The notes beneath the pieces are model-generated. The model ran no database searches. It was given only the letters and a program-made list of their open reading frames with translations, and was not told the DNA's origin. 64,000 nucleotides of DNA from contig NZ_LN849456.1 in the NCBI RefSeq assembly GCF_900070355.1, positions 1,736,001 through 1,800,000 on the forward strand. Direction: 5' to 3'. Origin of the DNA: Devriesea agamarum (lineage in GTDB: Bacteria; Actinomycetota; Actinomycetes; Actinomycetales; Dermabacteraceae). Below are positions 45,662 to 51,518 of this stretch, one piece after another; within the stretch, counting starts at the first letter, position 1, and every line of letters starts with the position of its first letter. The translations under genes were made by a program, and so were the position numbers.

Positions 45662-45831
45662 GGGTCAGATGACCTGCTGGGTCAGATGACCTCCCGAGTC
45701 AGGCGGACGTCCGTTGCTATTAGGCGGACGCCCGAGTCAGGCGGTCACCCATTGCTAACTGAATGCCTGGGTCGGGTAAAAGGCTGTGACAGGTGGACGG
45801 CTGACTTAGGCGGACGCTGGCGTCAGCTGAG
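45662..45831. repeat. degenerate tandem repeats past ung
   Basis: Two 17-mers, GGGTCAGATGACCT plus three variable bases, are head to tail at 45662-45695. Two 37-38 base copies opening GAGTCAGGCGG start at 45696 and 45734, with another related AGGCGGACG near 45815. The array reaches the stop of the siderophore-interacting gene. Confidence 0.7.
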
Positions 45832-46944
45832 CGCCCGGCCGCGACACCAGTACCCCATAAACGCCACTTGGCGACGATCTATCCCGAGGTCGCGGACGAG
45901 ATACCGGCGTATCCCTTTAACCACACCTGACTCTCCCGCAATCCAGGCGTACAGATCTGACGTCGCGCAGGCATCACCGACAGCTGAACCCCGCGGCACG
46001 ACGGAGTCTGCATTGCGGGGCACATCCCACAGCAGCGGGTCATCGGTATCGACCTCGTCATGACCAGCGCGGTCACCGTCATGACCAGCGCGGCCACCGT
46101 TATGACGACAGTCACTGCGCTCACAGCGGTCACCGTCATGACGACGGTCACTGCGGCGTGTGCGATCTCCGTCAAACACCGCGTCGTCGATGCGGTGAGA
46201 ACTTACGGACGCAGAGGCAAGGTCACGTACCGCCTGGTCTAGTCGCTCCCCCAGTCGCGCGCCATCGCGCGGAAGCCACACGATATCCATATGCGGGCTG
46301 GCACAGCGCACATCGTCGAGGATGTCCTGGGAAGTCGGCACTTCCAGTAAAGCGGCGCCGCGAGCTGTCTCCGGTAAAGAACTGAGGATCGAGCCCATGG
46401 CCGGGACCGCGGTTTCGTCTCCTGCCAGCAAGATCTGCTCAGCTGAACCGGGCCTGAATTCAATGGCGGAACACTCTCCCTCGGCGGTGTAGTCGGGACC
46501 CAGAATGAAAATGGTGTCGCCGGGGCGCGCCTCAGCCGCCCACGCCGCAGCTGGGCCTCCTCGCCCGTCAGCGTCAGTGTGCATGACCACGTCGACGTCA
46601 ATTTCGCCTCCGACGCCTCCTGGCCCGGGCCGCCACGTACGGACGGTGTAGGTGCGCATGACGCCACGGTCGGTTTCGGGGAGGCGCAACCAGGGCTGAT
46701 ACCAAGAAAAGTCCTCGCCGTCGAATGAATCGATGAAGGCAGGCAGGTCAAAGCGTTGGGTCTGCGGCGCGGCCTGAAGAGTGGGAACCACCAGCTTGAT
46801 CCGCAGGTCAAGGACATCTTCGGTAAGACCGAATCGGTCAAGGCCCGGCCCGCCGAACGTGATGCGACGAAAGGCAGGCGATAAGTCCCGGGTCGCGAGC
46901 ACTTCGGCATCTAAGCAGGCGATGGCACGACGAGTCCGAGTCAT
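45823..46944 (-). CDS. siderophore-interacting protein (ferric-siderophore reductase), with internal repeat expansion
   Basis: The 373-residue protein has the SIP FAD-binding domain (LSPAFRRITFGGPGLDRFG; MRTYTVR; DVDVVMHTDADGRGGPAAAWAAEARPGDTIFILGP) and an NAD(P)H domain (QILLAGDETAVPAMGSILSSL). A C-terminal DLYAWIAGESGVVKGIRRYLV completes the fold. It reduces ferric siderophores to free iron in the cytosol. Between residues about 235 and 310 is a His/Asp/Arg-rich insert made by 21- and 36-base repeats that keep the frame. Usual family members are about 250-290 residues. It starts after GGAG and is divergent from a TetR gene. Confidence 0.88.
   Translation of the reverse strand: MTRTRRAIACLDAEVLATRDLSPAFRRITFGGPGLDRFGLTEDVLDLRIKLVVPTLQAAPQTQRFDLPAFIDSFDGEDFSWYQPWLRLPETDRGVMRTYTVRTWRPGPGGVGGEIDVDVVMHTDADGRGGPAAAWAAEARPGDTIFILGPDYTAEGECSAIEFRPGSAEQILLAGDETAVPAMGSILSSLPETARGAALLEVPTSQDILDDVRCASPHMDIVWLPRDGARLGERLDQAVRDLASASVSSHRIDDAVFDGDRTRRSDRRHDGDRCERSDCRHNGGRAGHDGDRAGHDEVDTDDPLLWDVPRNADSVVPRGSAVGDACATSDLYAWIAGESGVVKGIRRYLVRDLGIDRRQVAFMGYWCRGRALS
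46056..46155. repeat. in-frame tandem repeats inside the siderophore-interacting gene
   Basis: Units begin CGT(C/T)ATGAC at 46056, 46077, 46098 and 46134. The first two are 21 bases and differ at one base; the third is 36; the fourth repeats the start of the third. They encode HDGDRAG-like heptads on the minus strand. Confidence 0.85.
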
Positions 46945-46986: not shown

Positions 46987-47006
46987 TCGCAACACGATTA
47001 TTGCGA
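46987..47006. promoter_or_regulatory. candidate TetR operator between divergent genes
   Basis: Perfect arms TCGCAA and TTGCGA are separated by eight bases, within the 141-bp spacer between the siderophore-interacting gene and the TetR regulator. Confidence 0.5.
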
Positions 47007-49044: not shown

Positions 49045-49107
49045 TAGTTCGTGTCCGTATACGGTTAGTCCGTGTCCACGTGCGATTAGTTCATGTCTAT
49101 ATGCGGT
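49045..49107. repeat. three 21-bp degenerate tandem repeats upstream of the DsbA-like gene
   Basis: Copies at 49045, 49066 and 49087 each open TAGT(T/C)C(G/A)TGTC and end in GG/GAT. They sit directly before the AGGAGG, so they form the untranslated leader. Confidence 0.75.
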
Positions 49108-49280: not shown

Positions 49281-51518
49281 TTATGAACGCCAAAATGCCA
49301 GCCACTGCATGAGCTGTGCCTGCGGAAACGGCACATAGTCAACGTGTCCGTGGCGGGTCATGGCGGCGGCGATGATGCAACCCGCCACCACAATAAGCAG
49401 GGCGAGGATACCTGCGGTCCAGCCAAAGGTGGGTGCGGCTGCATCAACCAGCCGATGCGCACCATCCCGGGTCATCCGCGATGCCGGCCCCACCCAGGTC
49501 AGCAGCAGAACAATGGCCATCATGCCGGCGGTCACGAAAGCGTCAGACGGGGCCACCGCGCCGACGAAGTGGAGCAGTCCGACCGCCGAGAAGGCGAGCA
49601 GCACCGCGAGTAGAACGGGCAGCATGCTCATGAGGATGGATTCCGCAAAGGACCAAAGCAGTCGCCACGGGCTCACCAGTCCGACCGCCCAGGCGTCACC
49701 CGCGCGCGGGCCGCGTTCGCTGCGGCGTCGTTCGAGTTGGCGAGCGCCGCGCAACCAGGTTCGAGCCACCGCGTTAAGCAGCAGGAAGAGCCCGAAGGCG
49801 AGGTAGGGCACCACGGTGGCTAGCAGCACGAGCAGGAGGTGCCCGCACCATATGATGCCCGGTCTGCGTCGAACAGATTGCTGGGACTGGACGGGGTCAG
49901 GGGGCCATGGTGCGGGTGGCGCACCGTAGGCCGGCTGGGCGGCCAGGTCATAACCAGGTTGGGCGGGCATGTGGTAGCCCGGCTGAGTGGGCATGCCATA
50001 TCCCGGCTGAGGCGGTACCGCATAACCCTGCCCATAAACCTGGGTGGGAGCGGAGTTCGTTCCCAGGTTCGGCAGCACCTCGGTTCGATCACTGGCGACG
50101 TGTCCATGAAGGACTTCGGTGCTGTCTGCGTTGTCTCGGGGGCCGCTTTCAGCCCCTAACCCTGCGGCGCCTACGCCTAGTGCGCCCGCCATACGCGAAC
50201 CTGCTACACCCGCGCCTGCCATACCCGCATTTGCTACGCCCGCACCTAGGGACCCCATGCCCGCCGTTCCCGCACCCGCCGCACCCGCCGCACCTGCGGA
50301 AGGTAGGGCACCATGTAGGTCCAGTGGGCTCAGTACCGTCGTCGGGGCATCAGACGCATCGTAACGACCGGATATAACCTCGGTTTTCAGATCGTCCTCT
50401 CGCGACCTGCCGGTCAGACCAGGAGCCCCGGCTGGAACAGGCACCGTCGGCGGGAGGGGAGTCACTGGTGAAGCGGGAGGCATCCCTCCCACGGGGGTGG
50501 GCAGCGGCTCAGAGACCGTGGAGAGCGGCGATGTCACTGCTTCTGACGATGCTTCAGACGCCGCGGCACCTGCACTCTCGCCGCCACCGGAGTGAAGATC
50601 CGATACGGAGAGCACTTCTGTGGCACCGGGGTCGTCGTAGACGGTGAGGTCGAGCTGAGCGAGCCGTTGGATTAATTGGCCGGGATCAACGCGGTCGGCA
50701 GGGTCGGGCTGAAGGGCGTCGCGCAACCACCTTCGCAGTTCAGCTGGGGCTCCGGCGCTATCAATTTCGCCTTTTTCTGCCCGCATGAGAACGAGGTCTA
50801 CCCGCCCGGATCCGAAGGGGTCGCGGCCGGTGGCTGCGAACGCGACCAGGGCAGCCCATGCCCACCAGTCTGCGGCGGGCCCGGTGATGTTTGTGCGGGC
50901 CAGTTCCGGGTCCAGGTAGGCGGCTGTTCCCATGACCAGGCCTGTGGAGGTGAGGCGGGATTCTTCGGCTGCTTGGGCGATCCCGAAGTCGATGATGACC
51001 GGGTCGAGACGTTCGCCGTCCGGGTCGAAGGAGATGAGATCGGTTTCGGTGGCGCCGCGCAGCAGGATGTTGGAGGGTTTGAGGTCGCGGTGGACCAGGC
51101 CTGCGCGGTGGATGGTTTGGAGAGTTTCGCCGAGCATGACCCCGATTTCGCGCACTGCTTCGGGGTGTAGGCCGCCGTGACGGCGGGCTGCCTCGTCGAG
51201 CGTGGGTCCCTGGATGAACTCGGTGACGATAAAGGCTTCGTCGGATTCAAGTTCGGCATCAAGTACTTGGGCGATGTTGTCGCTGCGTACGCGTTGGAGG
51301 GCTTTGACTTCGCGGGCGAGTCGCTGGCGGGCCTGTTGATCGCCGCCGATTTCTGGGCGAAGCATTTTGATCGCCACGTCGCGGCCTTCGGCGTCTCGGG
51401 CGCGGTAGACGATGCCCATGCCTCCGGAGCCGATGCGTTCTGCGACGTCGTAGCCCGATTCATCGGCCAGAGCCCGGCGTCGGAGGTCGCCGCCGCTTGC
51501 TCGGTAGAAGTCGGTCAT
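49281..51518 (-). CDS. membrane serine/threonine protein kinase
   Basis: This protein of about 745 residues has an N-terminal Hanks kinase (about 15-275): GSGGMGIVYRARDAEGRDVAIKML, the loop LVHRDLKPSNILL, DFGIAQ and the lobe text GTAAYLDPELARTNITGPAADWWAWA. A long low-complexity Pro/Ala/Gly/Met region (about 295-560) has repeats of MAGAG and QPGY. Four to five helices end the protein; the PASTA repeats of PknB are absent. The start at ATG 51518 lies nine bases after TATAGA. Substrate and signal unknown. Confidence 0.88.
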   Translation of the reverse strand: MTDFYRASGGDLRRRALADESGYDVAERIGSGGMGIVYRARDAEGRDVAIKMLRPEIGGDQQARQRLAREVKALQRVRSDNIAQVLDAELESDEAFIVTEFIQGPTLDEAARRHGGLHPEAVREIGVMLGETLQTIHRAGLVHRDLKPSNILLRGATETDLISFDPDGERLDPVIIDFGIAQAAEESRLTSTGLVMGTAAYLDPELARTNITGPAADWWAWAALVAFAATGRDPFGSGRVDLVLMRAEKGEIDSAGAPAELRRWLRDALQPDPADRVDPGQLIQRLAQLDLTVYDDPGATEVLSVSDLHSGGGESAGAAASEASSEAVTSPLSTVSEPLPTPVGGMPPASPVTPLPPTVPVPAGAPGLTGRSREDDLKTEVISGRYDASDAPTTVLSPLDLHGALPSAGAAGAAGAGTAGMGSLGAGVANAGMAGAGVAGSRMAGALGVGAAGLGAESGPRDNADSTEVLHGHVASDRTEVLPNLGTNSAPTQVYGQGYAVPPQPGYGMPTQPGYHMPAQPGYDLAAQPAYGAPPAPWPPDPVQSQQSVRRRPGIIWCGHLLLVLLATVVPYLAFGLFLLLNAVARTWLRGARQLERRRSERGPRAGDAWAVGLVSPWRLLWSFAESILMSMLPVLLAVLLAFSAVGLLHFVGAVAPSDAFVTAGMMAIVLLLTWVGPASRMTRDGAHRLVDAAAPTFGWTAGILALLIVVAGCIIAAAMTRHGHVDYVPFPQAQLMQWLAFWRS

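Follow-up and report, generated by a model that had tools for sequence, protein, structure and literature searches.

A tandem-repeat insert in the linker of a siderophore-interacting protein from Devriesea agamarum, very probably grown by in-frame duplication

A gene for a siderophore-interacting protein (SIP) of Devriesea agamarum carries, in the 64,000-nucleotide stretch of chromosome analyzed here (the window), four adjoining in-frame repeat units that encode residues 259-296 and occupy 114 bp of the coding strand, from position 46170 down to 46057. Very probably, this array arose by slippage-type in-frame tandem duplication within a tolerant, disordered linker, the resulting insert being a neutral or slightly modulating spacer. 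The gene, its repeat units and the predicted linker are located as follows.

45823..46944, minus strand: siderophore-interacting protein gene, 373 aa, FAD-binding 9 and SIP domains (Pfam and Foldseek)
46135..46170, minus strand: 36-bp unit 1, GDRTRRSDRRHD, 26 of 36 bases the same as in unit 2
46099..46134, minus strand: 36-bp unit 2, GDRCERSDCRHN, also picked up as a repeat in another register
46078..46098, minus strand: 21-bp unit 3, GGRAGHD, also picked up as a repeat, 20 of 21 bases the same as in unit 4
46057..46077, minus strand: 21-bp unit 4, GDRAGHD
45967..46170, minus strand: predicted disordered linker, residues 259-326, pLDDT below 50

Both halves of a SIP are recognized in the gene product by Pfam, namely FAD-binding 9 (PF08021; E 3.8e-27, 95.3 bits, cut-off 23) and the SIP NAD(P)H-binding domain (PF04954; E 9.6e-31, 107.2 bits, cut-off 26.3). 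The protein shares the fold of solved SIPs, with 4yhb_A ranking first in Foldseek (E 1.7e-18, TM-score 0.73 by target length), and the solved SIPs 4yhb, 6geh, 7xlz and 2gpj are its best Foldseek matches. Like the window protein, the solved SIPs 4yhb (T. fusca), 6geh (SfSIP), 8c4l (SbSIP) and 6k2l (SipS of Aeromonas hydrophila) contain both domains. SIPs use a bound flavin with NADH and/or NADPH, and the passages on these enzymes in the same source state no need for a metal-binding loop (PMC11965169). By analogy with other SIPs, the gene product, presumably a cytoplasmic enzyme, should act as a ferric-siderophore reductase.

Tandem Repeats Finder (TRF) assigns a score of 88 to 46056-46106 and, when run on the gene alone, also a score of 86 for a 36-bp period. 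Across 1.92 Mb of sequence from 30 dinucleotide shuffles of the window, the best array scores 64; as no shuffled array exceeds this value, the array in the SIP gene is not a product of chance. A repeat expansion at this place had been reported in a preliminary description of the DNA, and the four in-frame units, the TRF scores and the Pfam assignment bear this out, as does the peptide HDGDRAGHD, found in the translation as described. The span given there, 46056-46155, covers ~87% of the units and misses the 5' part of unit 1, the full extent being 46057-46170. The 36-bp copies differ at 10 of 36 bases, corresponding to four non-synonymous and two synonymous codon differences, and the 21-bp copies at a single base of 21, which is non-synonymous. 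With five non-synonymous against two synonymous differences between copies, the peptide shows no evidence of being strongly constrained, although the numbers are small. As single-stranded RNA, the repeat stretch folds more stably than 200 of 200 shuffles (z -3.1), a strong fold that fits palindromic repeats, and Rfam finds two tRNAs only in the window and no known RNA element at the repeat. A genome-wide repeat element was ruled out, since the insert DNA matches only itself in the genome at better than E 0.02.

The linker was compared across 110 genes, comprising that of the window and 109 homologous loci (80 related-locus matches and 29 loci from genomes of the same family, L084-L112); L002 and L003, partial matches to the second SIP-like gene of the genome, were left out of the counts. 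The 110 include at least the duplicates identified by a test on the central 600 bases, L089 matching L007 and L097 matching L066 and L071. In that test two same-family loci match loci of Brachybacterium, a genus of Dermabacteraceae, which places the host in this family by inference. Linker length was measured from the WLxR to the E[DE]VD motif, with a minimum of 25 aa required. At 70 aa, the window linker is the longest; the next reaches 62 aa and the 109 other loci range from 30 to 62 aa, with a median of 42. Within the SIP, or NAD(P)H-binding, half of the protein, the window linker connects the helix that follows the WLPR strand with the conserved segment EVDxD..LLWD. When the window protein is aligned with 37 of the 80 related-locus matches, conserved flanks are seen, with WLxR and a helix before the insert and E[DE]VDxD..ILWE and YAWIAGE after it, in agreement with the earlier placement of the insert between two conserved segments.

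Lengthening of this loop is not restricted to the window. Five loci of the Arthrobacter group (L055, L070, L077, L081 and L082) carry separate Ala-rich extensions at the matching place, and TRF arrays with a score of at least 50 lie in the linker in 8 of the 110 genes, compared with 1 of 110 for the core, despite a linker of ~125 nt against a core of ~860 nt. All eight linker arrays belong to the set of 30 genes that comprises the window gene and L084-L112; the 80 related-locus matches contain none. The seven arrays other than that of the window encode different peptides, Ala/Gly- or Pro/Gln/Glu-rich, such as PQEPQEPQE in L098 and an Ala/Gly/Asp-rich stretch in L088; some appear closely related to each other, and the seven would thus represent fewer than seven independent events. 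Among the homologous loci, L014 (3001-3996), filed under the title Vibrio cholerae strain 35D, contains a SIP gene like those of Arthrobacter; this assembly is probably mislabelled or contaminated.

The preliminary description noted that all unit lengths are multiples of three; a special meaning of this property is not supported by the genome at large. In a sample consisting of the window and 20 stretches of 20 kb, with genes approximated as a greedy set of ORFs of at least 120 aa and arrays across ORF edges left out, periods divisible by three were found in 34 of 35 coding arrays compared with 7 of 26 intergenic ones. Such periods in coding arrays are the expected filter against frameshifts. 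A repeat-rich genome as a special cause is likewise unsupported: arrays scoring at least 80 number 17 in 400 kb of the D. agamarum genome (GC 0.60), and the two relatives compared carry 31 (G002, GC 0.72) and 2 (G042, GC 0.62), each in 200 kb. Other in-frame arrays are present within the window, including a 21-bp array of 2.9 copies (49045-49105) close to the beginning of a DsbA/thioredoxin-like gene, an array that may lie ahead of the true start codon, and 30-bp and 9-bp arrays (50182-50294) in a gene encoding a protein kinase domain.

AlphaFold2, supplied with the window protein and 37 homologues, predicts a core in which 168 of 373 residues reach a pLDDT of at least 90, and residues 259-326 stay below 50 and form a loop that connects confidently predicted parts of the core; low values are to be expected at the repeat region whether or not it folds around a ligand, since the other rows of the alignment lack the insert. 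The model suggests that the linker loop is probably disordered. A disordered loop of fixed length with no metal affinity had been named beforehand as the refuting case; disorder is supported by the prediction, whereas linker length varies between species.

We propose that the insert is a minisatellite-type array in a surface linker of the SIP half of a flavin-dependent siderophore reductase. Replication slippage or unequal recombination would have duplicated two units, of 12 aa and 7 aa, once each, possibly aided by the half-palindromic stretches GTCATGAC and GGTGACC. The copies would persist because the frame is kept and the loop tolerates changes in length. The His/Asp/Arg text would then be a consequence of which DNA happened to be duplicated, and the insert a neutral or slightly modulating spacer in an enzyme that reduces ferric siderophores. 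Its His+Asp and His+Asp+Arg fractions are the highest of the 110 linkers, confirming the composition noted earlier, and some selection on composition is therefore conceivable.

Among the other explanations, a length-variable tract whose copy number shifts between strains and thereby tunes the enzyme is improbable. The 21-bp copies are nearly identical, so that this duplication looks recent; however, units that are all multiples of three provide no on/off switch, and with only two copies per unit and the divergence within the 36-bp pair, frequent slippage is unlikely.

Slightly less probable again is an insert acting as a metal-binding arm, in which His, Asp and Cys residues (HD, HN, C-x4-C-x-H) would capture Fe2+ or Zn2+ in the vicinity of the reductase and pass it on. 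The window linker does contain five His, the most of the 110 genes, together with two Cys, its His+Asp fraction is 27% compared with a median of 5%, and C-x4-C-x-H is present in the translation. The ligand residues are nevertheless not conserved among homologues, with at most three His in each of the 109 other linkers, both Cys are confined to the second 36-bp copy, and the matching loop of other family members is filled with Ala/Gly- or Pro/Gln/Glu-rich repeats, which shows that the His/Asp content is not conserved. Moreover, the solved SIP 6k2l has only ~20 residues from the corresponding strand to the next conserved strand, compared with ~100 residues between the WLxR and YAWIAGE strands of the window protein. 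In the literature collection searched, no paper combines siderophore-interacting protein with "histidine-rich", and those that combine it with "tandem repeat" are off-topic by title. Metal binding by the insert is thus unsupported, because the composition is not conserved, other repeats occupy the loop and the region is predicted to be disordered; from sequence and model, it appears unlikely. A combined scenario is more doubtful still: in the family, repeats would have grown in the SIP linker several times independently, and in this species they would have been co-opted as a His/Asp/Cys arm binding released ferrous iron beside the reductase. A sequencing or assembly artefact, for which no supporting point was found, is hardly credible given diverged, short copies that keep the frame in a genome assembled as one contig (2.96 Mb, 99.99% complete, 0.03% contaminated).

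In-frame duplication in a tolerant linker has a parallel in archaeal Borg elements, where in-frame tandem repeats of amino acids are described as giving rise to disordered regions (PMC9879509). As in the D. agamarum genome, units within genes of these elements are in frame and intergenic units are mostly not divisible by three, and the repeats lie in disordered stretches, a property that is predicted for the SIP repeat. Borg repeats are described as mostly perfect and as overrepresented among extracellular proteins (PMC9879509), whereas the SIP repeat has few, diverged copies and resides on a bacterial chromosome, in a presumably cytoplasmic enzyme. The long linker is common to the window protein and its actinobacterial homologues, whereas the repeat itself is the window protein's own. 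In-frame lengthening of an already variable SIP loop is an ordinary kind of change, and the array, one among many short tandem duplications in the genome, matters little alone; most simply, it has been kept because the reading frame is preserved in a flexible loop. Different tandem repeats have gathered in the SIP linker in several members of a single actinobacterial family, in 8 of 30 genes, a small natural case of repeat growth where a protein tolerates it. A metal-binding arm, if true, would be a novel means by which a siderophore reductase retains freed iron.

Repeats are also found in the DNA on either side of the gene. Downstream, the intergenic region 45662-45826 contains degenerate tandem repeats, including two copies of the palindrome GGTCAGATGACC (0.12 expected, for a pattern picked after sighting); this DNA was ruled out as a genome-wide element, as it matches only itself in the genome at better than E 0.02. 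Upstream, the inverted repeat TCGCAA-N8-TTGCGA lies at 46987-47006, between the SIP gene and a divergent TetR-family gene (Pfam), and occurs once in the window against 0.04 expected, again for a pattern picked after sighting. This inverted repeat is a possible operator.
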